Shown: positions 8,485 to 42,274 of the stretch, piece after piece | How the letters are laid out: each line of letters begins with the position of its first letter | How positions within the stretch are numbered: the stretch's first letter is position 1 | Source of the DNA: Chthoniobacteraceae bacterium | GTDB lineage: Bacteria; Verrucomicrobiota; Verrucomicrobiia; Chthoniobacterales; Chthoniobacteraceae | Length of the DNA: 64,000 nt | NCBI GenBank assembly: GCA_028293625.1 | Contig: JAQGOL010000030.1 | Location: forward strand, 186,001 to 250,000 | Direction of reading: 5' to 3' | Made by a program: the position numbers and the translations under genes | The notes under the pieces: model-generated | Database searches by the model: none | The model's input: the letters and a program-made list of their open reading frames with translations, nothing else | What the model was told of the DNA's origin: nothing

Positions 8485-8581
8485 AAGCACTCTCCGTCGG
8501 TTGAAGCGCGGCGGGATTCCGGCCAATTCATTGTGCCGCGCCTCGTGAACTTCCTGCCGGCCGCTTTTCAAGGCACTTTTA

Positions 8582-11428: not shown

Positions 11429-11523
11429 CGGCTGGGGGAACCTTGGGGGGAACCTTGGGGACATGGAAAACCTGGAGGCAGCGAGAAGCCGGACCGATTT
11501 AAGGCGATGAATCGGAGGCTGGA

Positions 11524-12894
11524 TTATCCGTAACGCAACGCTTCGATCGGGTCGAGCCGGCTCGCTTTGATGGCGGGGTAAAATCCGCTCACGACACCAA
11601 TGATTAAAGCGAAACTAAAGCTGATCAGGACTGCCGGAAGCTCCACCACCGGCGCGTTCTTATCGGAAATCATGACCAGAATCTTCATGATCCCAAAACT
11701 CGCCGCCAATCCGAGAACGCCGCCGATGAAGCCGATCACTGCGCTTTCCACCACGATTTGCATAAAGATATCGCGCCCCTTCGCGCCAACGGCCCGGCGT
11801 ACACCGATTTCGCGGATTCGCTCACTGATACTGGCCAGCATGATATTGGTGATGCCAATGCCGCCGACCAGCAGCGAGATTCCCGCGATCATGCCGCCGC
11901 TTAAGCGCGTGCTCTGGACGCTCTCCTCAATGGTGTCAAACCACTCCTGCTTGGTATCAAATGTGAAATCCTCAATGCCTCGATGGGTGGCGCCGACGAT
12001 GGCTTGCACCTGATTCATGGTTTGCTGAAAAGCAGCCGTATCCGCCACCTGGAATGAAAGTTGGTCGAGCTTGTAATTAGGCCCCTGATCGACCAGGCCG
12101 ACCACGCTGGCGCTCTTGAATTCGTAAAACATCGTGCTGATCGGAATCAGGATCATGGCGTTCTTGCGGTCGAACATTCCGCCCCCGGATCCCCCGCCCC
12201 GCCCGCCACCAGGAGCACCACCCGGCGGTTTTCTCTTCGTACGATCCCGTTCCACCGGAGGCGCTTTTGCTGCTTGCTCGCGCCGGCGTTTGTCCTCCTC
12301 GCGTTCGTAATGGGTAAATTCGCCAACGACCGTAAATGGACAGCCATTGAGCATGATCGATTGGCCAATGGGGTTGAAATGCGGCAGCTCAGGCCAGAGC
12401 CGTTGCGAGATCCCGTCGCCGATGACGCAGACATGTTGGGCGTTTTCAACATCCATCAGGCTCAGGTTCCGGCCCCGGGCCACCTCATGTTTATTGATCG
12501 GCACAAAATCCGGCCATGCACCGACAACAAAAGAACGGAAGAGCTGGTTTGCGCGTGTGATTGCGCAACTCTGCAGTTCGGAAACGGGCGTCACATAAGA
12601 AACCAGATCCGCCGATTTAAGGATTGCCTCCGCATCGGCCACCGTCCGCCCCGGCGAGATCTCGGCATACCCTTCCTGCTCGATCGGCACGTCCTGAGTG
12701 ATGATACCAACCTTCTCAATCCCGCCGACCTGCTGCATGTATTCGCGCATGCCTTTCGCCATTCCCGCGGTAAGCGAAAACATGCTCAGAAGCGATGCCA
12801 CGCCGAGAATGATCCCGAGCATCGTGAGGAAACTGCGGAATTTGTGGGAAGAAATTTCTTTTAACCCAAGGAGGAGTCCGAGCCAAAGATTCAT
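11524..12894 (-). CDS. MacB-like ABC transporter permease (FtsX type)
   Basis: The 456-aa protein has the MacB topology: one N-terminal helix (~21-41), a periplasmic domain of ~280 residues, then three C-terminal helices with the FtsX-type ERIREIGVRRAVGAKGRDI loop (~360-380). The MacB_PCD region opens with ADAEAILKSADLVSYVTPV. Unusually, the periplasmic domain carries a basic, Pro/Gly-rich insertion (about 215-245, with GGGRGGGSGGG). It overlaps the ATPase gene by 4 nt; the adaptor gene lies upstream. The three should form a mechanotransmission exporter for peptides, lipids or antibiotics. Confidence 0.88.
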   Translation of the reverse strand: MNLWLGLLLGLKEISSHKFRSFLTMLGIILGVASLLSMFSLTAGMAKGMREYMQQVGGIEKVGIITQDVPIEQEGYAEISPGRTVADAEAILKSADLVSYVTPVSELQSCAITRANQLFRSFVVGAWPDFVPINKHEVARGRNLSLMDVENAQHVCVIGDGISQRLWPELPHFNPIGQSIMLNGCPFTVVGEFTHYEREEDKRRREQAAKAPPVERDRTKRKPPGGAPGGGRGGGSGGGMFDRKNAMILIPISTMFYEFKSASVVGLVDQGPNYKLDQLSFQVADTAAFQQTMNQVQAIVGATHRGIEDFTFDTKQEWFDTIEESVQSTRLSGGMIAGISLLVGGIGITNIMLASISERIREIGVRRAVGAKGRDIFMQIVVESAVIGFIGGVLGLAASFGIMKILVMISDKNAPVVELPAVLISFSFALIIGVVSGFYPAIKASRLDPIEALRYG

Positions 12895-13556
12895 ACAATT
12901 TTGCCGTCTTGGATTTCAATCCGGCGCGGAGTTTGGGCGGCGATCTTGTTGTCGTGTGTCACCAGCACAATTGTGCGGCCTTGTTCGCTAAGTTCACGAA
13001 AGAGCTCCAGAATGGTGGCGCCGGTTTTGGAATCCAGATTCCCCGTTGGTTCATCCGCAAACACGATTCGCGGATCGTTGACCAAGGCGCGCGCAATGGC
13101 GACCCGCTGCATCTGCCCGCCGCTCAACTGCAAAGGGGTGTTTTTTACGCGGTTGGAAAGGCCCACGCGTTCCACCGCGGCCAGGGCGCGGGTGCGGCGT
13201 TCCTGAGCGGTCACGCCAGCGTAGATCATCGGCAGCTCCACGTTTTGCAGCACGGTAAACTTCGCGAGAAGATTGAAGGACTGGAAGACGAACCCGATCT
13301 TCTGGTTGCGCATCTCGCTCAATTTATTGGCGCTCGCGCGGCTTACGTCGATGCCGTCGATGCGCATCATTCCGGAAGTCGGCGTGTCGAGGCAGCCGAG
13401 CAAATGCATCAAAGTCGACTTGCCGCTGCCGCTTGGACCGATGATGGCGGCGTATTCGCCTTGTTCAATCACAAGATCGATCCCATCAAGGGCGACGATA
13501 TCCTGCGAACCAACACGGTAACGCTTGGTGACGTTGGTTAATTCAATCAGCGCCAT
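12891..13556 (-). CDS. MacB/LolD-type ABC transporter ATPase
   Basis: A 221-aa ATPase of the MacB/LolD class with Walker A GPSGSGKST (~40-48), signature LSGGQMQRV (~143-151), Walker B RIVFADEPTG (~163-172) and the family DNKIAAQTPRRIEIQDGK C-terminus. It powers the FtsX-type permease encoded 4 nt downstream. Length and motif spacing are normal. Confidence 0.93.
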   Translation of the reverse strand: MALIELTNVTKRYRVGSQDIVALDGIDLVIEQGEYAAIIGPSGSGKSTLMHLLGCLDTPTSGMMRIDGIDVSRASANKLSEMRNQKIGFVFQSFNLLAKFTVLQNVELPMIYAGVTAQERRTRALAAVERVGLSNRVKNTPLQLSGGQMQRVAIARALVNDPRIVFADEPTGNLDSKTGATILELFRELSEQGRTIVLVTHDNKIAAQTPRRIEIQDGKIV

Positions 13557-13644
13557 AAGGGACCCTTGTTGAAAACGCGGCTTTTTCCTGGAGAGACGCC
13601 GTTCCTGCGTTCTCCGGACCGATCCACTCCTGCGGGAATTAAAA

Positions 13645-14739
13645 TCACGATTTCTTTTCCGGGGTGCGCGACGGCTCCACCATAAGGATCTCTTCGCCTT
13701 CTTTTAAGCCGGTGAGAATCTGGGCGAAGTCGACGTTGGTCACCCCGACTTTGACCTGGCGCTTTTCAGAGCTCTCACCACTGCGCACATAAACCACCTT
13801 CGACATCCCGTCGCCTTTGAACACGGCGGCAATGGGAACCGCGATGGCGTCGTCGGCGCGGGCAATTGGAACTTTCACGCTCACCGTCATTCCCGGGCGC
13901 AGCTGGGCAACGGGCTTTTCGATCAACGCCCTGACCTGAAATCCCTTCACATTTGTTTTAATACTGGCCACGGGCGCAATAAAAATAATGCGCGCCTCCA
14001 ACTCGGAATCCTTAAGAGACTCGGCACGCAGTTGAACCACCTGATTGAGCTCGATCCGGGCGACATCAATCTGGTTGATATGCGTCTCAACAAGCAGCCT
14101 TGAGAGGTTGGCGATGGTCATCAGCGTGGTCCCGCTATTGACGCTGGCCGCCGCGATCACAACCTGGCCTTCACTCACGGGCCGCGTCAGCACAGTCCCG
14201 GCCATCGGCGCGAGCACCTTGGTCTTGCTCAGGCGATCATCCACGAGCTGCAGCTTGCGCATCGCCTTGGAATAAGAATTCTCGGAAATCGCGAGCGTTG
14301 AGGAAAGGTTATCAAAAACTTCAAGGCTGATAAGCTTGGCATCAAAAAGGTCTTTTCCACGGGTGAAATTCTTCTTGTCCCGGTCGACCTGAAGTTTTGT
14401 TCCTTCAATTTCCGCGAGGGCCGTTTCCCGCTCGCTTAAAAGATCATGATCGTCAATTTCGACCAGCAAATCGCCTTCCTTCACCACCGCTCCGGCCTCG
14501 ATATGGAGCCCTTTGATTTTGCCACCGACCTCTGACTTCACATCCAGCGTGATTTCCGGCGCCACATCCCCACTGATCTCCACCGTAAGATCAATGTCGC
14601 GTTTTTCCGCCCGGGTCACTCGCCGATCCGCGCGCTCGGCTGTTTTAGGAGCCTGCGCTGCGACCGGGCGAATCCGGGCATACCAATAGCCGCCCCCGGC
14701 GAGCGCGGTGAAAAGGAGGAGAATAACGAGTTTCTTCAT
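13645..14739 (-). CDS. MacA-like periplasmic adaptor (HlyD/RND membrane fusion protein)
   Basis: The 364-aa protein has one N-terminal membrane anchor (KKLVILLLFTALAGGGYWYA), a split lipoyl domain (around KGLHIEAGAVVKEGDLLVEI and APMAGTVLTRPVSEGQVV), a short coiled-coil hairpin between the halves (~95-165) and beta-barrel plus membrane-proximal domains to the C-terminus. This is the adaptor that links an inner-membrane MacB pump to an outer-membrane TolC duct. It precedes the ATPase by 88 nt in the operon. No TolC gene is in the window, so the duct must be encoded elsewhere. Confidence 0.9.
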   Translation of the reverse strand: MKKLVILLLFTALAGGGYWYARIRPVAAQAPKTAERADRRVTRAEKRDIDLTVEISGDVAPEITLDVKSEVGGKIKGLHIEAGAVVKEGDLLVEIDDHDLLSERETALAEIEGTKLQVDRDKKNFTRGKDLFDAKLISLEVFDNLSSTLAISENSYSKAMRKLQLVDDRLSKTKVLAPMAGTVLTRPVSEGQVVIAAASVNSGTTLMTIANLSRLLVETHINQIDVARIELNQVVQLRAESLKDSELEARIIFIAPVASIKTNVKGFQVRALIEKPVAQLRPGMTVSVKVPIARADDAIAVPIAAVFKGDGMSKVVYVRSGESSEKRQVKVGVTNVDFAQILTGLKEGEEILMVEPSRTPEKKS

Positions 14740-22860: not shown

Positions 22861-23874
22861 CTATGGCTTGATTGGCACATCGCCGCTCGCCTTCGCCGGT
22901 TTTGGCTCAGCCGGCTTGGAGATGTCCGCCTTTTTCACGGTGACTTTGGGCACCGGCTCGTTTGTACCGGCAAACTCGTTGTAAGCTTTCTCAATGAGTT
23001 CAGTTGGAAGCATTTCGCCTTTGGAAATCAAAAAGCGCACCCGAACCGTCTGCTCGCCTCCGGCAGGGATCGTCCCCTTGAACCAGGCGCCGAACCGCCC
23101 GTAATCGCGGTAAGCAGAATAGACGGCATCCTTCGAGTTGGTGGGATGATTGAGAAATACCACGCTGTAACGTTCTCCACGCAGCGTGAAACTCTCGCCT
23201 ACCCACGGATAATCACGGTCTTTTTTGGCATCGGCGCCTTCCTTTGGAAAAACGTAAACGGTTTCAAGCAGAGCCACATCGTTGGCCGGACGAAATTGAA
23301 GTCCGGAGTGCTCGGGATCGCCATCGAGCTTAGTTTCGCCGCCCACCGCCTTCAGTTTCGAATCCATTTCAATCAACGCATACGCCTCCTTGGGCGGCGT
23401 CATGAAAATGAGGGTGCGTTCCTCTTCGAGCACGGGCGCGGCGGTCTCACCTGCCCAGGAGACCAGCGAAGTAAAGCTGGCATGATCTCCTTTTGTTTCC
23501 TGGGAAAGAAACCTGGTATGAACCTGCTCGCCGCCCTTCATATGCCAGCGATCGTAGGTTTTGCCTGCCACTGTCAGCTTATTCCATCCAATAAACATCC
23601 CGTGATGATGTGGAAAAAGGCCGCCACCGCCCTTGGTGATCGGTTGTTTGCCTTCAGCGTCGAAGACATGCAGATACGGTTTGAAATTTTCGTTCCGTTT
23701 CTCGGGGGTTGAGAAATCGGTTGAATACATGTAGCGGGCAACCGGTTTGCCGTTGGTGAGAATGTCGAGATACTGGCCGGCCTCATCATGAAATGAGAAA
23801 GTGGCATTCTCGGAATGCGCAAGCGTGGCCGCCATGCATGCCGCGGCGAACAGAGGGAGGGGGGAGCGAAACAT
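22861..23874 (-). CDS. Exported DUF6807 (PmoA-like) family protein
   Basis: From ATG 23874 (GGAGGGC directly before it) the 337-aa protein has a signal peptide (FRSPLPLFAAACMAATLAHS). The family signature GLFPHHHGMFIGWNK follows (~89-103), then long beta segments, ending in a Lys/Pro-rich tail (KPAEPKPAKASGDV). The family is often annotated 'methane oxygenase PmoA', but it is not a monooxygenase; it is common in Verrucomicrobiota and Planctomycetes, often near sugar-related genes. The HHH cluster may bind a metal or ligand. Function unknown. Confidence 0.8.
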   Translation of the reverse strand: MFRSPLPLFAAACMAATLAHSENATFSFHDEAGQYLDILTNGKPVARYMYSTDFSTPEKRNENFKPYLHVFDAEGKQPITKGGGGLFPHHHGMFIGWNKLTVAGKTYDRWHMKGGEQVHTRFLSQETKGDHASFTSLVSWAGETAAPVLEEERTLIFMTPPKEAYALIEMDSKLKAVGGETKLDGDPEHSGLQFRPANDVALLETVYVFPKEGADAKKDRDYPWVGESFTLRGERYSVVFLNHPTNSKDAVYSAYRDYGRFGAWFKGTIPAGGEQTVRVRFLISKGEMLPTELIEKAYNEFAGTNEPVPKVTVKKADISKPAEPKPAKASGDVPIKP

Positions 23875-24089
23875 GCCCTCCAGATTGCGTGGAGGCGGTC
23901 TAAAAACGAGCATTTTCATCTAATTGCCTCGCCCGATCCGCTTCGCCGCGCGGCTTCCTTTGCGCAGAGCCTGAAAGCCCGCGACAAGCGCGGCAATCGT
24001 GGCACACCGGCGTTTTCCTCGAGGTTTGACATCGCATCAACAGCCCGCTAGCCGTTGCACGGTTTGTGACAGCTTCGGTTTCATTGATT

Positions 24090-24650
24090 ATGGAAAACTT
24101 TCTACTCGGAATTAAGGCGCTGTTTCGGATCTGGGGCGACAAACTCTTCGGTGACCAGGTAAAACAACTTCTCGAAGGCCATATCGCTCCCGCCGCCCCG
24201 CCTCCGGTTGAACAAAAACCGGTCGAACCGCCTCCAGCCGCGCCCGCGCCGGTTAAAGAAGCGCCTGCGCGAAGTGAAGCCGTCACTTTGCTCACGGTGC
24301 TTCAACGCGAGGCGCGTTTTGTCGATTTCATCAAGGAACCGATCAACGATTATACCGATGCCCAGATCGGCGCCGCGGTGCGAAGCGTGCATAAGGAGTG
24401 CGGCGCCGTGCTCGACCGGCTCTTTGGCATTGAAACTTTGAAAACCGAGGCCGAGGGCGCCAAAGTGGAGGTTCCCTCGGGATTCGATCCCGCGCAGATT
24501 CGATTAACGGGCAGCATTCCCGAGCATGGCCCGTTTCGCGGCACGCTGAATCATTCCGGATGGAAAGCGAGCCGGTGCGAGATTCCGCAGTGGAGCGGAC
24601 TCAAAGAATCCGCGCTGGTGATCGCGCCGTGCGAAGTGGAACTCAAATAA
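24090..24650 (+). CDS. DUF2760 family protein of the Hsp70 island
   Basis: The 186-aa protein starts MENFLLGIKALFRIWGDKLF. A Pro/Ala-rich linker follows (about 35-60), then a compact domain of ~120 residues with LLTVLQREARFVDFIKEPIN and DAQIGAAVRSVHKECGAVLD, the DUF2760 hallmark. The C-terminus, with SALVIAPCEVELK, is also typical. DUF2760 genes are recurrently found immediately before YegD-like Hsp70 genes. Here the Hsp70 follows by 20 nt, so co-expression and a partner role (co-chaperone or substrate adaptor) are inferred. Confidence 0.82.
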   Translation: MENFLLGIKALFRIWGDKLFGDQVKQLLEGHIAPAAPPPVEQKPVEPPPAAPAPVKEAPARSEAVTLLTVLQREARFVDFIKEPINDYTDAQIGAAVRSVHKECGAVLDRLFGIETLKTEAEGAKVEVPSGFDPAQIRLTGSIPEHGPFRGTLNHSGWKASRCEIPQWSGLKESALVIAPCEVELK

Positions 24651-24670
24651 ATCAGAGCAAGGAATGCATT

Positions 24671-26470
24671 ATGAGCGCAAACGCATCGGCCAAATACGCC
24701 ATCGGCATTGATCTCGGCACCACCAACAGCGTCGTCGCATTTACCAGGCTGAGTGATGACTCCCGGGCAGTGGAACTGTTGAGCCTGCCGCAAATTGTCG
24801 CGCCGGCTACTATTGAACCGCGTCCTGCGCTCCCTTCGTTTCTCTATCTGGCGAGCGAAAGCGAGGGTGCAGCCGGCACTTACGATCTGCCTTGGGCAAA
24901 AGGCGCGCGCTTCGCCGTGGGCGAGTTTGCGCGCAAACAATCGGCTGATGTGCCAACGCGCACCGTGGCAAATGCCAAGTCGTGGCTCTGCCATAATCGA
25001 GTCGACCGCCGCCAGCCAATCCTGCCATGGAACGCGCCTGCTGAGGTGCCAAAAATCAGTCCGGTGGAAGCCTCCCGGCGTTACCTGGCTCAGATGGCCG
25101 CCGCATGGAACCACGCGCACGCGGACGCGCCGATCGCCAAACAAAAAGTGGTCCTCACCGTGCCCGCCTCTTTCGATGCGAGCGCTCGCGAATTGACCCG
25201 GGAAGCCGCGCTCGCGGCCGGGCTGCCGGAAAACCTCGTTTTGCTCGAGGAACCACAAGCGGCACTCTACGCATGGCTTGCCGATGCCGGCCAATCGTGG
25301 CGCCGGCAACTCAAAGAAGGCGATACCCTGCTTGTCTGCGATATCGGCGGCGGCACCACCGACTTTTCCCTGATCCGCGTCACTGCCGAGGCGGGTCAGC
25401 TTGAGTTAAAACGGATAGCAGTAGGCAATCACATCCTGGTGGGCGGCGATAACATGGATCTCACCCTTGCCCATTCGGCTCAAAGCGCGTTTGGCGAAAA
25501 AGGAGTGGAAGTCGATCCGTGGCAATCGGTGGCACTCTGGCATGCATGCCGGGCGGCCAAGGAAACCTTGTTGAGCGTGGGCGGACCGCGCACCCAGCCG
25601 GTTGCCATCCTTGGCCGGGGCAAAAAACTCATCGGCGGCACGATTTCGGTCGACCTCGTGCGTGAAACAATCCTTGCCGCGCTGCTCGATGGCTTTTTTC
25701 CTCCCTGCAAATTGAGTGATCAGCCCGCGAGCCGGCGCGCATCGGGTTTTCGCGAGATCGGCCTTCCGTATGAAACCGATGCGGCCATCACACGCCATCT
25801 CGCGCGGTTTTTAACCCAGCAAAGCGGTACCGATTCCGAGACGACCCGTCCCACCCATGTCCTTTTCAACGGCGGCGTGCTCAAGGCGACGGCATTAAGA
25901 GAACGGCTTTTGGAAGTGATTGGTTCCTGGTTTCCAGGCGGCGCGCCGACGGTTCTGGAAGGGAATAACGACTTCGATTTCGCCGTGGCACGCGGGGCCG
26001 CCTATTATGCGGCGGCAAAGGAAGGCAAAGGAATGCGCATCCGGGGCGGCACCGCGCGCTCTTATTATGTCGGCATTGAAACCGCCGGCTTGGCCATCCC
26101 CGGAGCCATGCGTCCCTTGCGCGCTTTGTGCGTGGTCCCTTTTGGTATGGAAGAAGGAACCGAAACCACCGTGCCGGGCGAGGAAATCGGACTCGTGGTC
26201 GGCGAACCCGGCCATTTCCGCTTTTTTGCCTCGGCCGTGCGCAAAGAAGATCAACCCGGCCAGATGCTCAATCGCTGGAGTGAAGACGAATTAACCGAGA
26301 GTGACCCCCTTGAAACCACGCTCAGCGCGGCGGAAGGGGCGGAAGATGGTTTTGTGCCGGTCCATTTTGAATCGCGCATCACCGAGTTGGGAATGCTGGA
26401 GCTTTGGTGCGTCAGCACGGTCAGCGATGAACGGTGGAAGCTCGAATTCAGCGTGCGCGAGGAAACGTAA
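24671..26470 (+). CDS. Non-canonical Hsp70 family chaperone (599 aa)
   Basis: ATG 24671 has AAGGA eight nucleotides upstream. The actin-like ATPase shows phosphate-1 IGIDLGTTNSVVAF (11-24), phosphate-2 CDIGGGTTDFSLI (~222-234) and the adenosine-site LFNGGVLKATALRERL (~398-413). It is longer than a DnaK nucleotide-binding domain because of insertions. About 130 residues of beta-rich sequence follow, but there is no helical lid and no EEVD-type tail, so substrate binding must differ from DnaK. It belongs to the YegD-like lineage found beside DUF2760 genes. Probably acts with the 937-aa Hsp70 encoded 2 kb downstream. Confidence 0.9.
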   Translation: MSANASAKYAIGIDLGTTNSVVAFTRLSDDSRAVELLSLPQIVAPATIEPRPALPSFLYLASESEGAAGTYDLPWAKGARFAVGEFARKQSADVPTRTVANAKSWLCHNRVDRRQPILPWNAPAEVPKISPVEASRRYLAQMAAAWNHAHADAPIAKQKVVLTVPASFDASARELTREAALAAGLPENLVLLEEPQAALYAWLADAGQSWRRQLKEGDTLLVCDIGGGTTDFSLIRVTAEAGQLELKRIAVGNHILVGGDNMDLTLAHSAQSAFGEKGVEVDPWQSVALWHACRAAKETLLSVGGPRTQPVAILGRGKKLIGGTISVDLVRETILAALLDGFFPPCKLSDQPASRRASGFREIGLPYETDAAITRHLARFLTQQSGTDSETTRPTHVLFNGGVLKATALRERLLEVIGSWFPGGAPTVLEGNNDFDFAVARGAAYYAAAKEGKGMRIRGGTARSYYVGIETAGLAIPGAMRPLRALCVVPFGMEEGTETTVPGEEIGLVVGEPGHFRFFASAVRKEDQPGQMLNRWSEDELTESDPLETTLSAAEGAEDGFVPVHFESRITELGMLELWCVSTVSDERWKLEFSVREET

Positions 26471-26529
26471 AGCGCGCTTTTATCCGCAGCGTTAAAAGAG
26501 ACCGCAGGAAAGGCAGATCACGCATCCTG

Positions 26530-27189
26530 TCATGGCGTTTTAGCAGGCTCGGGTGCTTCGGCCGTTTCAAGATGCGGCATTGAAGAGATAAATGCCTCGG
26601 CAAAGTCCGCCGGATCCTCCGGACCCGTGCTTCTAAAGAGGAAAAGCCACCCATTCATCCACCAAAGCCGCGCATGTTCATTTCCACTGGCAACGACATG
26701 GGTGCGGTTTCCAATCGTAATGACCGAATGCGTGTTGTTGACGGTAAATGTGACGTGATCATTGAGATGTGTCGTTGTTCGTGAGCCAAGTTTCGCCACC
26801 AGCGAATCCGTCGCCGTTTTGATCAACCCAGCCTTCTCCGTCTCATTGACTGCAAAGATTGTGACCTGCACAGCGCGGCCGTTTGGATTGCTGTAGCTCC
26901 CTGAAACGCCGGGGCGCGGCAAATCGAGTTCAGGAACCGGATCCACCCTGAATACCGCGCCCCGCGTCCAATCGCCCGCCTTGGATGGGAACCAACTTTC
27001 CTGAATATTCTCCGCAGGCGGCTGCCAGCTGTTTTCAATCGCAGAAAGCCGCTTCGATTCCGCCACCTGCGCGGTGAACCATCCTTTCCCCCTTCTCACG
27101 AGATACGGCGATGCGATAACCAACGTTCCAATCGCAACAGCAATCACTAAGAGGACGACGCCGCACCCGATGAGAATTTTCTGTTTCAT
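26530..27189 (-). CDS. Membrane-anchored hypothetical protein
   Basis: A 219-aa protein with one strong N-terminal helix (ILIGCGVVLLVIAVAIGTLVI) and an extracytoplasmic domain of ~185 residues that I do not recognise. It is rich in Thr, Asn and Val with beta-like alternation (HLNDHVTFTVNNTHSVITIG) and contains SWFPSKAGDWTRGAVFRVDP. It is the only minus-strand gene inside the Hsp70 island and is convergent with the first Hsp70 gene (60 nt between stops). Nothing links it functionally to the chaperones. Confidence 0.65.
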   Translation of the reverse strand: MKQKILIGCGVVLLVIAVAIGTLVIASPYLVRRGKGWFTAQVAESKRLSAIENSWQPPAENIQESWFPSKAGDWTRGAVFRVDPVPELDLPRPGVSGSYSNPNGRAVQVTIFAVNETEKAGLIKTATDSLVAKLGSRTTTHLNDHVTFTVNNTHSVITIGNRTHVVASGNEHARLWWMNGWLFLFRSTGPEDPADFAEAFISSMPHLETAEAPEPAKTP

Positions 27190-27719
27190 TCAAAGCCCGG
27201 CCTATCGCGCAGGAAGCCGAATGTCGATTGAAAGGCACGCAACGGCATTGCAACTTTCCCGCAAAGAAAGCCATTGGCGCAGCGGAAAGCGGCAAATGGC
27301 AAATCGCGCCACGGCTTACGAACGGCAACTTGGAAATTGCTGCTCAACGAAGAGCAGAAAGCCGTTTCAAATCGCGGTTTTAGTGTGCAAATCGGGCATT
27401 ACACCGCGTCAGTTCGATGCAACCCTGCGCCAGATGACTGATTAAGGCTTCAAACAGCGGATTCCCTGCGTCAGACGAGCCCGGAAGCATATAAATCGGG
27501 CATTAGGTGGGATAAGCGCGCCGTTTGAACGCGTCTGCTGCACTTTTACCCGCGTCAACGTCGAGCGCGTGGCATCGGAAAACGTTTTGAGGAAACAAAT
27601 CAAGGGTTATCCCTGATCTACGGGTCGTCTCTCTGTTCACCCTAGGATTTATGAACGGACATGCTCATTCTTTGGCTGCTCTCACAACGCTTGATCAATT
27701 CACTTAAAGAATTCCCTTC
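27190..27719. other. 530-nt intergenic region with a direct repeat
   Basis: No open frame here has protein-like composition. The region separates a minus-strand gene from a plus-strand gene, so it should hold two promoters. The 13-mer AAATCGGGCATTA occurs twice in the same orientation (27389-27401 and 27493-27505, 104 nt apart). I cannot assign a regulator or an RNA gene. Confidence 0.5.
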
Positions 27720-28454
27720 ATGAACAATCACGAGACCCGCCGATACGACTCTTTTACCCGTGTCCGTGCGTTTGGCTTGAATCATTCGGAGGATTTCCTG
27801 CCGGCAAGCAAGGCAGGCGGTCACTTTTCCAATGTTGCACGGATCATCAAGGAGCTGGAGGCAGCCAGACTTGCCCAGCACGCCAACGGATTGCATTCCA
27901 CAGAACCGCTGGCGGAACGGCTGCGGTTGATGTTGCAGGATCTAACCCGCACAGCGCGCGCCATCGCCCAGGATGAGCCGGGATTTGCTGATCCTTTCCG
28001 GCCGCCTGAAAATGCGGGCCAGAGCGCCCTTCTTGCCGCAGTGGACGCCATCCTCCTGAAACTGCTTGAAGCACCCGATGACACGAAAGCGATCAAAGCT
28101 GCCAAAGCCGCTTTGATTGCCCGGTTTGTTCAGCACGAGATGCCGGCCGATTTTGTCACGCGCATCGCCGCCGACCGCGCCGCCATTAACAGTGCAAAAG
28201 CTGCCCAGGAAAGCGGTGAAAATGAAACGGTGCAAAGCACGGCCGCAGTCGGACGACTGGTGCGGGATGGAACAAAGGAAGTCATCTATCTCGATGCGAT
28301 TGTGCGGAACAAATACGCACGCAATCCCGATAAACTGCGGGCATGGATAAGCGCAAGCCATGTGGAACGCCCCAGGCGGCTCTCAAAAAAACTGCCGCAA
28401 GCGAGCGTCTCCGCTCTCATTGCCGGGCCGCTCGAGCAGGAAGTGATTTCATAA
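27720..28454 (+). CDS. Uncharacterised protein of a soil-bacterial family (VRxFG type)
   Basis: The 244-aa protein is all-helical and soluble. It begins MNNHETRRYDSFTRVRAFGL. Its middle has RTARAIAQDEPGFADPF, and the tail has VIYLDAIVRNKYARNPDKLR. From memory, this pattern (R.-.-F.RVR.FG at the start, a GF..-F segment, and LD.IV.N near the end) recurs in uncharacterised proteins of Acidobacteria and Verrucomicrobiota. No catalytic motif is visible. It sits 88 nt before the second Hsp70 gene on the same strand, but its wide occurrence elsewhere argues against a dedicated chaperone role. Confidence 0.7.
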   Translation: MNNHETRRYDSFTRVRAFGLNHSEDFLPASKAGGHFSNVARIIKELEAARLAQHANGLHSTEPLAERLRLMLQDLTRTARAIAQDEPGFADPFRPPENAGQSALLAAVDAILLKLLEAPDDTKAIKAAKAALIARFVQHEMPADFVTRIAADRAAINSAKAAQESGENETVQSTAAVGRLVRDGTKEVIYLDAIVRNKYARNPDKLRAWISASHVERPRRLSKKLPQASVSALIAGPLEQEVIS

Positions 28455-28541
28455 GCGATTGCGGAATCGGGAGGCGCGTTTTTACGCTGTGAAGCTTTAC
28501 AAAGGGATGAGAACCCTTCGGACTCCGGAAAAGAGAACGCT

Positions 28542-31355
28542 TTGTCCCTCGAAACGCCTCACTCCCCTACCAGCACCGCGCGATTTGTTGTCGGGATTGA
28601 TCTCGGCACGACAAATTCAGCGGTTGCATACGTCGAGACGGAGAAGGGGGCGATCCGCACTTTCACGATCCCGCAACTCGTCGCGCCGGGCGAGATCGAG
28701 GCGCGGGAAACCTTGCCATCGTTTCATTACGAGCCGGCTGAATCGGAATTCAGCACATTGCGTTTGCCGTGGGAAACGGGTCAGGCCGCCGGGCACGTCG
28801 TTGGCGTCTTTGCCCGGGATCACGGCGCGGTTGTCCCGGGACGCCTGGTTGTCTCAGCCAAATCGTGGCTTTCCCATTCGGGAGTGGATCGGACCGCGGA
28901 CCTTCTGCCCTGGCACAGCGGGCCCGGAGTGAGAAAAATTTCACCGGGAGAAGCGAGCGCGCGTTATCTGGGCCATATCCGGGCGGCTTGGAATCATCGC
29001 TGGCCGGATGAACCGCTCGAAAAGCAGGAGGTGATCATCACGATTCCCGCTTCCTTTGATGAAGTGGCGCGGGAACTGACCGTGGCGGCCGCACGCCGGG
29101 CCGGATTGCCGCGCGTGGTTCTTTTGGAAGAACCGCAAGCCGCTTTCTACGCGTGGGTGGAGGCAAACGGCAAGGAATGGGACAAAAAACTCCACGCGGG
29201 CCAGACGATCCTGGTCTGTGACATCGGCGGCGGCACTTCGGATTTCACCCTGATCGAGGTGCGTCGCGGCAAGGGCCGCCAGGTGCGCTTTCACCGGGTG
29301 GCAGTTGGCAACCATCTGATCCTGGGAGGCGACAATCTTGATCTCGCCCTGGCCGGTTTTGTTGAGAATCGTTTGCGGGAGAACAATCCGCGCCTTGGCC
29401 AGCTTGAGCCGCGTCAATGGAGCGTGCTGGTGCGCCGCTGCCAGCAGGCGAAGGAGATATTGCTTGGAAATTCCGCGCCTGAGCGGCTGACATTGAGCGT
29501 GCCGGCTGCCGGGTCAAAGTTGATCGGCGGCGCGTTGCAGATTGAGATCACACGCGAGGAAGTCGCCACGTTGCTTGTGGATGGTTTTCTTCCATTCACA
29601 AGTTTTGATGAAGAGCCGATTAAACGGAGCTCCGGGTTCCAGGAATTCGGCCTCCCTTACGCTGCCGACCCGGCGATCACACGTTATCTGGCCGCTTTTT
29701 TGAAAAAGCAGGGCCACACTTCAGAACACGGCACGGCGGCAGCCGAAGAAAATGCCCGGCCTGACGTGATTCTTCTCAATGGCGGACTGTTTGAATCGCC
29801 ATTGATGCGCCAGCGGCTTCTCGACGTGCTCGGCGCGTGGTTTGATCGACCGGAGCATCCGTGGAGCCCGGTCATTTTGGAAAACCAGCGGCTTGATCTC
29901 GCTGTTGCATACGGAGCGGCACAGTTTGGGATGGTCCGGCGCGGCGCCGGGTCCCGGATCTCGGGAGGTGTTGCGCGTTCTTATTACATTGGCGTAAAAA
30001 AGCGGAATGAAGAGACCGCCGCAGTTTGCCTGGTGCCCGCGGGATTGGAGGAAGGCGAGACGGTTGACCTTTTAAATCAACGCTTTGAGCTTCTGGTGCG
30101 GCAACCGGCCGAATTCCCGCTTTATCTCTCGAGTGTGCGGACCGGCGATGCACCCGGGGCCATGGTGCCGGTGAATTCCGAGGAATTTTCCGCGCTGCCA
30201 CCGATCCGGACGGCGTTACGGGCAAAAAATGAGGAAGCCGGGACGGTATCGGTCTTTTTGCACGCGCGTCTGACCGAAATCGGCACATTGGAAGTCTGGT
30301 GCAGCGAAGCGGAGGGCACGCGAAAGTGGAGGCTTCAGTTTGACGTGCGCGCGGCCAATCGGAGTGGCATCCAGCCGGCATCAACAGGGCAGGAGGCTGT
30401 GTTGCTCGATGAAGAATCGATAAAACGGTGCGTGGATTTGATCGAGCAAACCTTCAGCCCTGGTTCGCCGCCGGCGCTCGCGGAATCGCTCGTTAAACGG
30501 ATGGAGGAAATCACCAATGCCGCGGGCGCGGGCAATCGCCTCGATTGGTCCCCCGCCCTGCTCCGGCGTTTCTGGGATGAACTGCTGCAGGCTGAGCCCG
30601 GTCGCGCATTAAGCCCCATTCATGAAGCGCGCTGGCTCAATTTGCTCGGGTTTTCGCTCCGCCCGGGATACGGCGTCGCGGTGGACGACTGGCGGGTGGC
30701 GCAGACGTGGCGGCTGGCGACGCAGGAGCGTAAAGTCGTCCATTTGCGCAATGAATTATGCGGGGCGGAATGGTGGGTATTGTGGCGGCGCATCGCGGGC
30801 GGCCTCAATGCGGGCCAGCAAAAAACGCTGGCCGATCCGCTCATCGCGCAATTGAAAAAAAGCCACTCGCGTCTTCCCTGGGGCTCCCATGAAACGGCCG
30901 AGGTCTGGCGAATGCTCGGCGCCTTTGAATTGCTCGATGCCAGCGTAAAGATTCTCCTGGGCGGGATCCTTTTGGGCCAGATCAAAGAAAACATGGCAGC
31001 CTCCCGTGCATTTCTTTGGACGCTTGGCCGGTTCGGCGCGCGGGTGCCGATGTATGGGCCGCTTAACACGGTGATTCCGCCTGAAATCGTCGAAAAATGG
31101 GTCGAAGAAGCCGGTGCGCGAAGACCCGATGCTGCGCGCGAAGAACTTTTTTTCGCGCTCACGCAAATGAGCCGGCTGACCGGGGATCGCTATCGCGACA
31201 TTTCCGAGCCGATTCGCGAATGGGTCATTCATGCGATGCGGGGCGCTCCGGAACGTTATCTGGAACTCATCAGAACCGGCGGTCTGCTGCAGGAAGACGA
31301 GCAGAACCTGGCATTTGGCGAAGCGCTTCCGCATGGGTTGCAGGTGAGCGCTTAA
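28542..31355 (+). CDS. Giant Hsp70 with C-terminal DUF3731-like domain (937 aa)
   Basis: Starts at TTG 28542, after GGAAAAGAG. The ATPase has VVGIDLGTTNSAVAYV (16-31), CDIGGGTSDFTLIEV (~227-241) and LLNGGLFESPLMRQRLLDVL (~411-430). It is closely parallel to the 599-aa Hsp70 along its first ~600 residues. A further ~320 helical residues follow (Trp/Arg-rich, for example WSPALLRRFWDELLQ and EARWLNLLGFSLRPGYG), corresponding to the DUF3731 C-terminus of such proteins. It lacks a DnaK lid. The pair of an Hsp70 without tail and one with a long tail, next to DUF2760, suggests a dedicated two-Hsp70 machine. Confidence 0.9.
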   Translation: MSLETPHSPTSTARFVVGIDLGTTNSAVAYVETEKGAIRTFTIPQLVAPGEIEARETLPSFHYEPAESEFSTLRLPWETGQAAGHVVGVFARDHGAVVPGRLVVSAKSWLSHSGVDRTADLLPWHSGPGVRKISPGEASARYLGHIRAAWNHRWPDEPLEKQEVIITIPASFDEVARELTVAAARRAGLPRVVLLEEPQAAFYAWVEANGKEWDKKLHAGQTILVCDIGGGTSDFTLIEVRRGKGRQVRFHRVAVGNHLILGGDNLDLALAGFVENRLRENNPRLGQLEPRQWSVLVRRCQQAKEILLGNSAPERLTLSVPAAGSKLIGGALQIEITREEVATLLVDGFLPFTSFDEEPIKRSSGFQEFGLPYAADPAITRYLAAFLKKQGHTSEHGTAAAEENARPDVILLNGGLFESPLMRQRLLDVLGAWFDRPEHPWSPVILENQRLDLAVAYGAAQFGMVRRGAGSRISGGVARSYYIGVKKRNEETAAVCLVPAGLEEGETVDLLNQRFELLVRQPAEFPLYLSSVRTGDAPGAMVPVNSEEFSALPPIRTALRAKNEEAGTVSVFLHARLTEIGTLEVWCSEAEGTRKWRLQFDVRAANRSGIQPASTGQEAVLLDEESIKRCVDLIEQTFSPGSPPALAESLVKRMEEITNAAGAGNRLDWSPALLRRFWDELLQAEPGRALSPIHEARWLNLLGFSLRPGYGVAVDDWRVAQTWRLATQERKVVHLRNELCGAEWWVLWRRIAGGLNAGQQKTLADPLIAQLKKSHSRLPWGSHETAEVWRMLGAFELLDASVKILLGGILLGQIKENMAASRAFLWTLGRFGARVPMYGPLNTVIPPEIVEKWVEEAGARRPDAAREELFFALTQMSRLTGDRYRDISEPIREWVIHAMRGAPERYLELIRTGGLLQEDEQNLAFGEALPHGLQVSA

Positions 31356-31407: not shown

Positions 31408-32313
31408 ATGCATCCACGCCTCCGCACCTGGCTTCAGCTCTTTCGCGCCCCGAACCTTTTCACAGTCCCCGGCGACCCATTGGCCGGGTTTCTTATCGCA
31501 AACTATGGAGTGCTTTCGATTGAAATGCTCTTCGTCATTGGAGCGAGCCTCTGCTTTTACGCAGCTGGCCTGCTCGACAATGATCTCGCCGATTTAGCCG
31601 AAGATCGCGCTGAACGTCCAAACAGGCCATTGCCCAGCGGCGCAGCCACGATCCGCTCGGTCTGGATCGCGACATGCGGGCTGACTCTCCTCGGTTTGTT
31701 CCTGTGCGTTTTGGCCGGGGGCCGGGCTCCCGTGGTCGGCTGCGCAATCGTCGTCGCCGTGGGCCTTTACAATCACGGGGTGAAGCGCGTGCCGGTTCTC
31801 GGCGCCCTCAACATGGGTCTCTGCCGCGCATTAAGCGTGATTCTGGGCGCAAGCACGGTCCCGGTCGCAGTATTTCCCAGAGAAGCGATTGCAGCAGCGA
31901 CGGTGATCGGGCTTTTCATCGCGGCGGTGACCAACCTCGCACGATTCGAGACACGTGTTGCAACTCCGCTAACGGCGAAATGGCTCCCTCCCCTCGTTTT
32001 ATTATGCAGTTGGTTTGCGGCGTGGATTTGCATCTCCGTGCGGACGCCCGATCTTTTTTTACTTCATACCATGACATTCCAGGGGCTGTTGGCATGCGCG
32101 ATGGCCTTAAGCATCACCATTGCCGCGGGTTTGACACGCAAAATTTCGCCCGCGCCTGTGCCGCCATCGATCGGCAAATTCATTCGTCTTCTGTTGCTGA
32201 TCCAGGCGGCGTTTTGCGCGCACACAGGCACAAAGGGGCTTATAATCGCCGGGTTTCTGCTGGCGCTTTATCCAATCAGCCGCGCCGTGGGGAAACGCTT
32301 TTACGCGAGCTAA
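31408..32313 (+). CDS. eboC: UbiA-family prenyltransferase, EboC-like
   Basis: A 301-aa, eight- to nine-helix protein with the UbiA motif NDLADLAED (58-66) extending to RPNRPLPSG. The second Asp-rich motif of UbiA enzymes is replaced by NLARFETR after FIAAVT, a feature I associate with EboC rather than UbiA or MenA. It would transfer a prenyl chain from a diphosphate to an unknown acceptor in the inner membrane. The ebo identity rests mainly on context: an EboF-like phosphodiesterase and an EboD-like dehydroquinate synthase follow on the same strand. Confidence 0.75.
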   Translation: MHPRLRTWLQLFRAPNLFTVPGDPLAGFLIANYGVLSIEMLFVIGASLCFYAAGLLDNDLADLAEDRAERPNRPLPSGAATIRSVWIATCGLTLLGLFLCVLAGGRAPVVGCAIVVAVGLYNHGVKRVPVLGALNMGLCRALSVILGASTVPVAVFPREAIAAATVIGLFIAAVTNLARFETRVATPLTAKWLPPLVLLCSWFAAWICISVRTPDLFLLHTMTFQGLLACAMALSITIAAGLTRKISPAPVPPSIGKFIRLLLLIQAAFCAHTGTKGLIIAGFLLALYPISRAVGKRFYAS

Positions 32314-32507
32314 AGCCTGCAACCCGGTTCTGGTGCAATTTGGATATTCAGAGCGGCACGGCGGGGGAGACGGGCGTTTTCACGGCAAACCCGGCCATAA
32401 ACACCACAAACGCTTTCCTCTTAGACAATATTTCCCAAGGGGCTGCGGGCACTCGCCATTTGAAAAAATCGTGCTTCTCTTGTCGTCCCCCAATCGCCCT
32501 GACCACT

Positions 32508-33791
32508 GTGCCTACCTCGAAAAAGCTTCTTATTGTCGACATCGCCGCGTTCGGATCGAACATGGTTTCCCATCTGCCGGAGTTCCAATCCGCGCAGACC
32601 TTCTTTCCGGCTGTCACCAGCGTATTTCAGGCCGGATTCCGCACGGGAGTCGAGGTTGGGGGGCATGGATTGGTGGCAAACGGCCTTTTCTTTCGCGATT
32701 TGAACAAGGTGCTCTTCTGGGAGCAATCGAGCGCGCTGGTGCAAGGCCCGCGCATCTGGGATGCCTTCCGGGCACGGGGAAAAACGGTTGGGATGATGTT
32801 CTGGCAGCAGAGCATGGGCGAAAAGGTCGATTTGGTGGTGACCCCTGCCCCGATCCATAAGCACAGCGGCGGGATGATCCAGGCATGTTACACGCAGCCC
32901 GCTTCGCTTGAAGCGCGGCTTAATGAAACGATCGGCCGTTCATTTAATCTGATGAATTACTGGGGGCCACTGGCCAACTACAAGTCGAGTGACTGGATTG
33001 TAGACGCGACCTGCGCCGTCATGGGGATGCCCGATGTGGCGCCTGATCTGCTGCTCACTTACATCCCGCATCTTGACTACGATCTGCAACGGTACGGCCC
33101 AAACAGCGAGCAGGCAAAAAAAGCGCTCGATGTGCTCCTTGGCCATCTGACCCGGATCAAGGCCGCGTGCCGCGACTTCGGCTACGACTGGATTTTTGTC
33201 GGTGATTACGCGATTGAACAGGTTAAGCGCGGCGCGATTTTCCCCAACCGTGCGTTGCGGGAAGCCGGGCTCTTTTCAGTGCGCGACATTCGCTCGATGG
33301 ATTACACCGATTTTTTTACAAGCGGCGCGTTTGCCGTGGTGGATCATCAGGTGGCCCACGTCTATTGCCGCGATGCGGACTCGACCCGGCGCGCGGCCAT
33401 GGTGCTCAAAACGTTGCCCGGCGTGACCGAGGTCCTTGATAAGGAAGCACAGGCGGCTCGCGGTTTGGCGCATGCCCGCAGCGGAGATCTCCTGATTGTG
33501 GCCGAGGATGGCGCCTGGTTTGCCTATCCATGGTTTGAAAAGGATCATGCGCCTGATTACGCCAGCCACGTTGATATCCACAACAAACCCGGATACGACC
33601 CGTGCGAACTTTTCTTCGGCTGGCCCCCATTGAGCGTTAGTTTCGACACCTCAAAAATCCGCGGATCGCATGGAAATAACGGCGCCGGGTATGAAATTGC
33701 CTGGTCCTCGTCGCTCGCTTTTGCAGAGAAACCCCAAAACGCCCTCGATCTGGTGCGCGCGACCGAGCGCTGGATGGAAGCTCAGCCATGA
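32508..33791 (+). CDS. eboF: Alkaline-phosphatase superfamily protein, EboF-like
   Basis: GTG 32508 gives 427 aa. Metal and catalytic elements of nucleotide pyrophosphatase-type phosphodiesterases can be followed: Asp11 in LLIVDIAAF, candidate nucleophile Thr37 in FPAVTSVFQAGFRTG, HGLVANGLFFRDLNKVLFW, a YIPHLDYDLQRYGP metal site (~182-195) and DHQVAHVY late. The HGLVANG...FW and DHQVAHVY blocks fit EboF-type proteins. No signal peptide, so it is probably cytoplasmic. It overlaps the next gene by 4 nt. The frame extends upstream through 31674 inside eboC, which is not credible. Confidence 0.75.
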   Translation: MPTSKKLLIVDIAAFGSNMVSHLPEFQSAQTFFPAVTSVFQAGFRTGVEVGGHGLVANGLFFRDLNKVLFWEQSSALVQGPRIWDAFRARGKTVGMMFWQQSMGEKVDLVVTPAPIHKHSGGMIQACYTQPASLEARLNETIGRSFNLMNYWGPLANYKSSDWIVDATCAVMGMPDVAPDLLLTYIPHLDYDLQRYGPNSEQAKKALDVLLGHLTRIKAACRDFGYDWIFVGDYAIEQVKRGAIFPNRALREAGLFSVRDIRSMDYTDFFTSGAFAVVDHQVAHVYCRDADSTRRAAMVLKTLPGVTEVLDKEAQAARGLAHARSGDLLIVAEDGAWFAYPWFEKDHAPDYASHVDIHNKPGYDPCELFFGWPPLSVSFDTSKIRGSHGNNGAGYEIAWSSSLAFAEKPQNALDLVRATERWMEAQP

Positions 33792-35068
33792 ACAAGACTT
33801 TTACCGGCCTTCTTGATAATGTGAAGGAAGCGACGGCCGCGATGGCCTCTTCGAGCGGCAAACTTGGCACGGCATCCCTTTCACAACCCTCCTCGGCACC
33901 TGTGCCGCATTCGATCCGCCAGCAGATCAGTGTGACCTGGGATTTTCCCGTCGTCTTTACCCACGATCTTTTCAGCGCCGACAACCCGGTCCTCGTTGAT
34001 ACCCTTAACCGGCTTCAGGATCAGAAAAAACACCGCGCGATGGTGTTCATCGACTCGTTTGTGGCGAAAAACCGCCCTGAACTGCTGAAAACCGTCCCGG
34101 CTTATTTCGAAACGCATTCTGAGACACTCGAATTGGCCGCACCGCCGCAGATTGTGACCGGAGGCGAGGCAGCCAAAAACAACTTCTCGCTGATTGAAGG
34201 GTTCATGCATCTGCTGCTCGAAAAGCGGATGGACCGGCACTCGTTTGTGATTATTGTCGGCGGAGGCGCCGTCATGGATTCAGTGGGCCTGGCGGCGGCG
34301 CTGGTCCATCGCGGACTGCGCCAGGTTCGCGTGCCAACCACGGTTCTTGGCCAGAACGACGCCGGTGTGGGAGTTAAAAACGGGGTCAATTTCGCGGGCG
34401 GCAAAAATGCGATCGGCACATTCGCGCCGCCGTTTGCCGTGCTCAATGATTTCAACTTCCTCCTCTCGCTTAACGATCGCGACTGGCTCTGCGGCGTGGC
34501 GGAAGCCTTCAAGGTCGCCATCATTCGCGACCGGATCTTTTTCGACTGGCTGCTTGAGCACGCCAAAAACTTTCCGGAACGCGATTTGGAGTCGATGCGG
34601 CTCCTGGTTGAGCGTTGCGCGGAAATCCACATTGAGCATATCCGCACCACGGGCGATCCGTTTGAATATGGCCGGGCGCGTCCCCTTGATTTTGGACATT
34701 GGTCGGCGCACAAGCTGGAGCTGATGTCCGGCTTTGCGATCTCCCATGGAGAAGCCGTGGCCTCGGGGGTACTTGTCGACTCCATTTACGCCCAAATGCA
34801 GGGATGGATCAGCGAGGCTGAGCTGGCTCAAATTGAAACGGGACTCAAGGAGAGCGGGTTCCGGCTTTGGTTTGAAGAGCTCGATCAACGCGATTCAAAC
34901 GGAGTCCGCGTGATCTTCGGCGGGCTGCGCGATTTCCAGGAACATCTCGGAGGCGAACTTTGCGTAACCTATCCGACCCGGATCGGCGCGCGCCACGAGG
35001 TGCACGAGATTGACCTCATTAAAATGGAAACCGCCTTCCAGGAACTGCGCCGGGTGGTTTTGGAATAA
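33788..35068 (+). CDS. eboD: Dehydroquinate synthase-like enzyme, EboD-like
   Basis: The 426-aa protein has the sugar-phosphate cyclase fold signature: NAD-binding IVGGGAVMDSVGLAAAL (~157-173), then VPTTVLGQNDAGVGVKNGVN with GKNAIGTFAPPFAVLNDF. The zinc ligands are Glu in GVAEAFKVAIIRD (~239), His in DFGHWSAHKLE (~302) and His in AISHGEAVASG (~319). GVGVKNG in place of the GVGGKTG of AroB, and the longer C-terminus, point to the EboD branch rather than shikimate synthesis. It would cyclise a heptulose phosphate or a similar substrate. Coupled to the previous gene by ATGA. Confidence 0.8.
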   Translation: MNKTFTGLLDNVKEATAAMASSSGKLGTASLSQPSSAPVPHSIRQQISVTWDFPVVFTHDLFSADNPVLVDTLNRLQDQKKHRAMVFIDSFVAKNRPELLKTVPAYFETHSETLELAAPPQIVTGGEAAKNNFSLIEGFMHLLLEKRMDRHSFVIIVGGGAVMDSVGLAAALVHRGLRQVRVPTTVLGQNDAGVGVKNGVNFAGGKNAIGTFAPPFAVLNDFNFLLSLNDRDWLCGVAEAFKVAIIRDRIFFDWLLEHAKNFPERDLESMRLLVERCAEIHIEHIRTTGDPFEYGRARPLDFGHWSAHKLELMSGFAISHGEAVASGVLVDSIYAQMQGWISEAELAQIETGLKESGFRLWFEELDQRDSNGVRVIFGGLRDFQEHLGGELCVTYPTRIGARHEVHEIDLIKMETAFQELRRVVLE

Positions 35069-41692: not shown

Positions 41693-42274
41693 TTACTTAG
41701 GCAGGATCGTGATACCGGCGCGAGCAGGCAAATTTCCTATCTGCGTATTAAAACACTCCGGGCAGATACCGTGGCTGAAGTTCGTGCCGGTATGCGCGTG
41801 AATATAACCTTCCACCTGCTGCCAGTAATCCTGATCGTCGCGCACCCGCTTGCAATACATGCAGATCGGGATGAGTTCCTTCAACTGCCGGATTTGTTTG
41901 GTGAACTCCAGAATTCGCTCTGCCACTCGCAGCCGCATAAGAACCGCCTCGCGATCGAGCGGTTTGGAAAGAAAATCATCAATGCCGGCATCCATCGCCT
42001 TGCGCATATTGTCGCGCCCGGTATGGATGGCTGTGAGCAGGATAAAATAGGTGTAATCGGTCTTTGGACGGTTGCGAATCCGCTGGCAGAGTTCAAGTCC
42101 TTCGACATTGGGCATCATCCAATCACTGATGACCACGCGTACCGGTTCGCGATCAAAAAGCTCCCACGCCTGGGCGCCATCGGAGGCGGCGATCACTTCA
42201 TGCCCGTAATGCTCCAGGGTGAATTGGAGAATTTTGACTGAGACCGGATCATCTTCAGCAATGAGAATCTTCAT
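41693..42274 (-). CDS. Response regulator with C-terminal Cys/His domain
   Basis: Residues 1-120 form a receiver domain: acidic pair EDD (7-9), phosphoacceptor Asp in VVISDWMMPNVEGL (~51) and Lys in DFLSKPLDR (~104). The C-terminal 60 residues carry LIPICMYCKRVRDDQDYWQQ ... HTGTNFSHGICPEC, two CxxC pairs and several His that look like a small zinc-binding module; similar tails occur on other orphan response regulators. There is no DNA-binding domain, so output is probably by protein contact. Its ATG overlaps the stop of the giant hybrid kinase by 4 nt, making that kinase the likely partner. Confidence 0.88.
   Translation of the reverse strand: MKILIAEDDPVSVKILQFTLEHYGHEVIAASDGAQAWELFDREPVRVVISDWMMPNVEGLELCQRIRNRPKTDYTYFILLTAIHTGRDNMRKAMDAGIDDFLSKPLDREAVLMRLRVAERILEFTKQIRQLKELIPICMYCKRVRDDQDYWQQVEGYIHAHTGTNFSHGICPECFNTQIGNLPARAGITILPK

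Follow-up and report, generated by a model that had tools for sequence, protein, structure and literature searches.

The prokaryotic Hsp70 types listed in an excerpt of PMC8215388 are DnaK, HscA and HscC. According to a section of PMC4753570, bacteria are known to have only one exchange factor, GrpE, and eukaryotes have the armadillo exchange factors HspBP1/Sil1 as well as an Hsp70-derived one, Hsp110. The Hsp70 cycle is generally described as centred on J-domain proteins and the VLLLD linker. In this work we analysed a 64,000-nucleotide stretch of a Chthoniobacteraceae contig (JAQGOL010000030.1, positions 186,001 to 250,000; referred to as the window), which carries a DUF2760 gene (D), a gene encoding a 599-amino-acid Hsp70 (Hsp70a, here A) and a gene encoding a 937-amino-acid Hsp70 with a DUF3731 tail (Hsp70b, here B), all on the plus strand (Table 1). 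The three proteins very probably work together, and it is likely that each is an obligate component of a single, dedicated Hsp70 machine of bacteria. Judged from sequence, this machine is probably neither DnaK nor HscA, and its linker and J-domain site probably set it apart from the described Hsp70s driven by J-proteins as well.

The first-pass annotation of the window had described two parallel Hsp70s, the longer one with a DUF3731 tail and the shorter one preceded by DUF2760 at a distance of 20 nucleotides, and the open reading frames (ORFs) and the Pfam matches agree with this description. D is a member of the DUF2760 family (PF10816; 148.1 bits, Pfam cut-off 25 bits), and residues 691-934 of B match DUF3731 (PF12531; E 1.9e-71, 241.2 bits, cut-off 25). 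A and B match PF00012 over part of the ATPase domain with E values of 6.9e-19 and 1.4e-19, respectively (67.9 and 70.2 bits, Pfam cut-off 20.6). B begins 2.07 kb past A, with two ORFs in between; in the nearest relative (L128) the A-B gap is shorter than 200 nucleotides. The loci closest in sequence to that of the window belong to records titled Verrucomicrobia and Spartobacteria. The absence of DnaJ and GrpE genes from the vicinity, also noted in the annotation, extends to the whole contig: in a genome-wide search all J-domain (five) and GrpE (three) matches were on other contigs. As the four full-length DnaK-like genes of the genome are also located on other contigs, the D-A-B island is not the general Hsp70 system of the cell.

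That the three genes belong together can be seen from their distribution, which was surveyed in 240 genomes of the window's phylum, 398 Pseudomonadota genomes and 14 control genomes. In the window's phylum D was found in 40 and B in 41 genomes, and all 40 genomes with D had both A and B; in the D and B searches each gene was held by 33 of the 132 genera. In the 41st B genome (G127) D was missing and A and B were present merely as broken pieces, which looks like a loss of the three genes as a set; the decaying remnants of A and B lie side by side (L127, positions 8287-9125), and D was not found elsewhere in this genome. Among the Pseudomonadota, D was present in 28 and B in 27 genomes, all 27 being common to both, and neither gene was found in the control genomes. 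The p-values calculated for the co-occurrence (6e-45 and 5e-41) are overstated because they treat genomes as independent; the weight of the finding lies in the number of genera and in the unlinked genes.

The genes are often not neighbours. A adjoins D or B in 19 of the 40 D genomes (18 loci and the window), in the other 21 it was found by a separate whole-genome search. Two of these 21 cases (G050 and G125) are probably breaks at contig edges; D and A were together with B apart in five genomes, A and B were together with D apart in four, D was near B with A apart in one, and all three genes were apart in nine. Altogether, the genes are scattered in about half of the 40 D genomes, as in the closed genome G083, where D is at 4.16 Mb, A at 2.10 Mb and B at 3.90 Mb. 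Because D, A and B are always present together even where the gene order is broken, joint function is the best explanation.

When named genomes were scanned with the D alignment, at least 572 candidates were obtained. The best 80 of these at least 572 loci came from Planctomycetota, Verrucomicrobia, Kiritimatiellae, Lentisphaeria, Fibrobacter/Chitinispirillum, Deltaproteobacteria and Massilia records, among others. A followed D on the same strand in 59 of the 80 loci and both A and B followed D in 31, many of the contigs being short. B was absent from the D locus in 49 genomes of several phyla; 44 of these had it elsewhere. Of the 22 genomes without a full A beside D, 18 had a clear A elsewhere, three had only B-like matches, and the remaining one had a contig-edge fragment, which could be A or B. 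The recurrent co-occurrence that the first-pass annotation had mentioned was thus found in both samples (40 of 40 D genomes with A and B in the window's phylum, 27 of 28 with B among the Pseudomonadota), and the linkage is conserved across phyla. In the phylum of locus L194, probably Myxococcota, B was present in 48 of 282 genomes, and D, A and B lay within 19 kb in 11 of 20 loci, A and B in one. In L194 itself B is in two frames (10965-13780), which is an apparent frameshift. Among 119 D-A pairs the two genes overlapped by 4 nucleotides in 24 and were less than 100 nucleotides apart in 89. The set occurs on plasmids and megaplasmids as well. On the conjugative Bradyrhizobium plasmid pCB82_1 (L267, 7761-16272) D-A-B is followed by groES/groEL, and on the Thiodictyon plasmid pTs485 (L266, 7695-10213) D-A is surrounded by annotated anti-phage, VapC and TIR genes.

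The trees of the three proteins agree. The correlations of tree distances were 0.87 for D-A, 0.85 for D-B and 0.92 for A-B (74 sets), and no permutation exceeded 0.17. In the ATPase-domain tree of 86 sequences A and B were separated from the DnaK-like genes of this genome with a support of 100/100; B formed one group (90/96) and the A sequences clustered, with the root falling inside A. The two Hsp70s are ancient paralogues. Two genomes of the window's phylum (L068 and L079) group among Beta/Gammaproteobacteria in the D, A and B trees alike, and two others (L082 and G119) group with the Alphaproteobacteria-like loci L263-265 and L267. The local support of the two groupings was 0.99 and 1.00 for A, 0.93 and 0.39 for D, and 0.65 and 0.94 for B. 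Since the same cross-phylum groupings recur in all three trees, we read them as an apparent transfer of the set between phyla as a unit.

The Hsp70 features were compared in an alignment of 85 A, 61 B and four DnaK-like rows (DnaK numbering is used for the positions). The nucleotide residues, i.e. the Thr of DLGTTN and the equivalents of D194, T199, D201 and E171, are kept in all A and all B sequences, and both proteins look like active ATPases. The Lys70 position is Arg in 76 A and 59 B sequences, and also in L063, another Hsp70 gene of the same genome. Residues of the J-domain site are replaced as well. As described in an excerpt of PMC8215388, the HPD motif of the J-domain binds R167, Q378 and L391 of DnaK, and the linker and D393 drive allostery; the role of R167 with J-domains is also described in a part of PMC7289447. 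Arg is found at the Arg167 position in one A and nine B sequences, the A and B of the window not being among them, and 82 A sequences have V, I, T, L or N. The Asn170 position is Glu in all 146 sequences, and the Thr173 position is Gln in 83 and Leu in two A sequences, and Gln in 42 and Leu in 19 B sequences. In the linker, DVLLLDVTPL of the same-genome DnaK is replaced by IRGGTARSYY in A, B resembles A, and a VLLLD-type linker was found in none of the 85 A and 61 B sequences. Because the J-domain-binding residues and the linker of DnaK are replaced, we predict that A and B should respond poorly to ordinary J-domains, and it seems likely that D-A-B run without J-domain proteins. The suggestion of the first-pass annotation that DUF2760 or the tail may replace a co-chaperone gains weight from the same losses, although both would still be putative replacements.

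It is possible, but in our opinion unlikely, that A and B are divergent but otherwise ordinary J-domain-dependent Hsp70s, which use the DnaJ and GrpE of the host, DUF2760 being a client or a regulator. The genome has J-domain and GrpE matches, the nucleotide site is intact in all residues checked, Pro143 is kept in all rows and Arg151 in all A and 51 of the 61 B sequences, and the co-occurrence is tied to no particular co-chaperone. This explanation is, however, weakened by the substitutions at the Arg167, Asn170 and Thr173 positions and by the lack of a VLLLD-type linker in the aligned sequences, R167, L391 and D393 being, in the excerpts of PMC8215388 and PMC7289447, the DnaK residues of J-domain and linker action.

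It is useful to compare A and B with the known bacterial Hsp70 systems. Similarly to DnaK of the DnaK-DnaJ-GrpE system, they have an Hsp70 ATPase domain and a beta-type substrate region, but their linker is of the RGGTARSYY type and they have no helical lid: the C-terminus of A, about 133 residues beyond the linker position, is too short for one, and in B the DUF3731 tail occupies its place. The first-pass annotation was therefore right about the missing DnaK-type lid. In addition, the locus has two apparently obligate paralogues and DUF2760 in place of a J-protein and GrpE. A and B stay well below the NCBIfam cut-offs for DnaK (67.6 and 65.3 bits vs 648; 64.1 and 62.9 vs 822.55) and HscA (84.4 and 80.2 bits vs 708.55). 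They share with HscA and HscC that they are specialised Hsp70s, but they are lidless and always occur with a second Hsp70 and DUF2760; sequence scores were compared for HscA alone, and no HscC model was among the families listed for A and B.

The tail of B is predicted with confidence to be an armadillo/HEAT-like solenoid. Its AlphaFold2 model, made with 60 sequences, had a predicted local distance difference test score (pLDDT) of 92.8, a predicted template modelling score (pTM) of 0.90 and seventeen helices. The tail profile matched designed armadillo proteins (E 1.7e-4), and the best Foldseek matches were armadillo, importin and similar structures, with an E value of 0.013 only. VIA-align gave a Z of 15.1 both with the armadillo protein 4v3o (root mean square deviation 5.7, 251 aligned) and with karyopherin beta2 (4fdd; 3.6, 264 aligned), a value that helical repeats can attain through their general arrangement alone. 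As an Hsp70 with an enlarged C-terminal part standing beside a shorter Hsp70, B resembles Hsp110/Grp170, from which it differs in that the enlargement is a solenoid and not a variable beta insert with a helix bundle, and Hsp110 is known in eukaryotes (PMC4753570, in the section consulted). The armadillo-type solenoid serving an Hsp70 is reminiscent of HspBP1/Sil1/Fes1 as portrayed there, but in B it is fused to the Hsp70, and no specific HspBP1/Sil1-like match was among the profile, Foldseek and VIA-align matches listed. A GrpE domain was matched neither in D nor in B. The parallel with HspBP1/Sil1 and Hsp110 suggests that B might reset A, but the solenoid may equally hold clients, and by analogy alone we consider the resetting role rather doubtful.

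The AlphaFold2 model of D is confident (mean pLDDT 91.0) except for the placement of the domains (pTM 0.62); it comprises two N-terminal helices (2-16 and 18-28) and a linker, three further helices and a region of beta and coil structure. The fold had no PDB match at E <= 0.001, the best VIA Z was 3.5, and no convincing sequence match was found. D gave no DnaJ match, and HPD is absent from both the D of the window and the family consensus. By the thresholds used here, the 149 distinct N-termini of D were strongly hydrophobic in 31 cases (L224 and L228 among them being borderline amphipathic), amphipathic in 96 and neither in 22. In some homologues a transmembrane helix replaces the N-terminal helices, and one proteobacterial group has a long charged stalk after the helix. 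The positive charges are mostly after the hydrophobic stretch, which would place the D domain in the cytoplasm. The transmembrane forms appear to be better evidence for the membrane than the amphipathic ones; taken together, the N-termini make a membrane location of D slightly the more probable one.

From the computed features, i.e. co-inheritance, agreement of the trees, altered linker and J-domain site, solenoid of B and a D fold unmatched in the PDB, we infer a mechanism in which A and B would form a working pair. B might reset A in the way that Hsp110 and the armadillo protein HspBP1 act on eukaryotic Hsp70; alternatively, it might be the client arm, the solenoid holding the client where DnaK uses the lid. 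The cycle would be driven not by ordinary J-domain proteins but by a trigger coming from D or B. Through the helix at its N-terminus and a stalk that is flexible and either Pro/Ala-rich or charged, D would tether the A/B pair to the inner membrane on the cytoplasmic side, and if the pair is held there, the likely clients would be membrane or envelope proteins. In its full form, this reading would add a fourth type to the bacterial Hsp70 machines, one that needs no J-domain proteins and consists of two obligate lidless paralogues and a membrane-placing co-chaperone, DUF2760, which would drive the machine, the armadillo-like arm resetting the partner or holding the client. As a whole we propose it tentatively, the odds being somewhat against all of its parts holding at once.

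An improbable alternative is that A and B, as members of the Hsp70/actin superfamily, do not act as folding chaperones but as actin-like scaffolds or regulators, anchored by D; they could, for instance, form an assembly or a signalling switch that is bound to the membrane and driven by ATP. The short substrate-binding region without a lid, the non-DnaK linker, the weak MreB matches to the same ATPase fold, the solenoid as a scaffold element and the membrane-associated look of D would all fit such a role. Against it, the best PDB matches of the profile were DnaK and other Hsp70 ATPase domains, past the linker A and the DnaK-like rows share an aligned GIET-like strand, and groES/groEL follow the set on the Bradyrhizobium plasmid. 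A defence or conflict module, which the genes around D-A on pTs485, the patchy distribution and the apparent cross-phylum transfer might suggest, is very improbable, as PADLOC yielded nothing beyond weak matches to generic ATPases (E 0.00077 and 0.0037), only three phage records matched A, none over more than 80% of the query, and no neighbour family was observed to recur in the other loci.

It must be noted that several observations weigh against the proposed membrane-bound, J-protein-independent machine. Amphipathicity is unspecific: residues 71-133 of D score in 66 of 120 cases, and among unrelated neighbours 131 of 484 scored as amphipathic and a further 108 as transmembrane, while the 22 D sequences mentioned above fit neither class. 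Roughly one in seven B sequences still has the Arg of the J-domain site. D occurs without B in one Pseudomonadota genome (G315) and in five of the 49 cross-phylum genomes, mostly fragmentary ones, and on pTs485 there is no B near D-A. Tree distances agree under plain vertical descent, too. In a covariation test with 82 sets (about 54 effective), six of 40 nulls reached the value observed for D-A and one of 40 that for D-B. Contact between D, A and B and their activity are putative. The Foldseek E of the tail was no better than 0.013. Solenoids are a widespread fold with many kinds of binding partner.

The first-pass annotation regarded the set as an undescribed dedicated chaperone machine. A dedicated set across phyla was indeed found, and DUF2760, DUF3731, PF10816 and PF12531 are named in no paper found in the literature searched; that the set acts as one machine is likely. 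The part consulted of the paper on Myxococcus DnaK duplication (PMC11019930) does not mention DUF2760 or DUF3731, nor does the main text of the Planctopirus essentiality paper, in the portion consulted, mention Hsp70 or DnaK. A possible lead comes from Myxococcus xanthus. The excerpt of PMC8265645 describes MXAN_5323 as a 925-amino-acid Hsp70 with a conserved nucleotide-binding domain, which is far from DnaK in the authors' tree and failed to rescue an E. coli dnaK mutant; the deletion strain had a mild phenotype, as it was viable but sporulated less and survived peroxide more poorly. No further mention of MXAN_5323 was found in the literature searched. Its length falls in the range of the 61 B proteins (881-992 amino acids), and B is found in what is probably the same phylum (see above). 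By length and description MXAN_5323 may be a B, and in that case its mutant phenotype would be the phenotype of the module.

If the proposed machine exists, its widespread Hsp70 pair, in which the J-domain site and the linker are replaced but the ATPase residues retained, would offer a natural experiment on the purpose of both features, and two domains of unknown function would gain functions. The set is carried by cultured Massilia, Bradyrhizobium and other Burkholderiales, thus the reading is directly testable.

Table 1. Features of the D-A-B locus (positions refer to the window)
Feature	Position	Strand	Basis or remark
D, DUF2760 protein, 186 amino acids	24090..24650	+	PF10816 E 1.4e-43; AlphaFold2 model; ATG at 24090, stop codon 24648-24650
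N-terminal helices of D, residues 1-28, hydrophobic/amphipathic	24090..24173	+	Model; N-termini compared
DUF2760 domain of D, residues 62-184	24273..24641	+	Conserved in 37 aligned homologues
A, Hsp70a, 599 amino acids; nucleotide-binding domain and short beta-type substrate-binding region, without lid	24671..26470	+	ATG at 24671; D-A gap 20 nucleotides
Interdomain linker position in A, RIRGGTARSYY	26036..26068	+	Alignment of 85 A, 61 B and 4 DnaK-like rows
219-amino-acid ORF between A and B, outside the module	26530..27189	-	Without Pfam family
244-amino-acid ORF between A and B, outside the module	27720..28454	+	Without Pfam or NCBIfam family
B, Hsp70b, 937 amino acids; Hsp70 part and DUF3731 tail	28542..31355	+	TTG start
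C-terminal tail of B, residues 606-937, predicted all-helical armadillo/HEAT-like solenoid	30357..31352	+	

Some candidate features of the loci were rejected. A conserved fourth gene was suggested by apparent families of 12-85 loci, which proved to be mostly antisense frames of A and B; the real neighbours of the set recur mainly among close relatives. Long open frames around D, which looked like D-A gene fusions, were upstream extensions, and the in-frame TGA in A of G208 and G226 was the normal stop codon, overrun by the profile.

Just upstream of D, on the opposite strand, there is a DUF6807 gene (22861-23919). Directly 3' of B, genes for a UbiA prenyltransferase, a type I phosphodiesterase and a 3-dehydroquinate-synthase-like protein follow in a row (31408-35068, plus strand), an order which we take to recall part of the ebo gene cluster. 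Farther away, on the minus strand, the window encodes a hybrid histidine kinase of 1360 amino acids that has an Hpt domain, two receivers and several PAS domains (42274-46353), after which come a stand-alone receiver gene and an NMT1-like binding protein. A DUF1552 and PSD/PSCyt (planctomycete-type cytochrome) gene pair is also on the minus strand (47522-50940).

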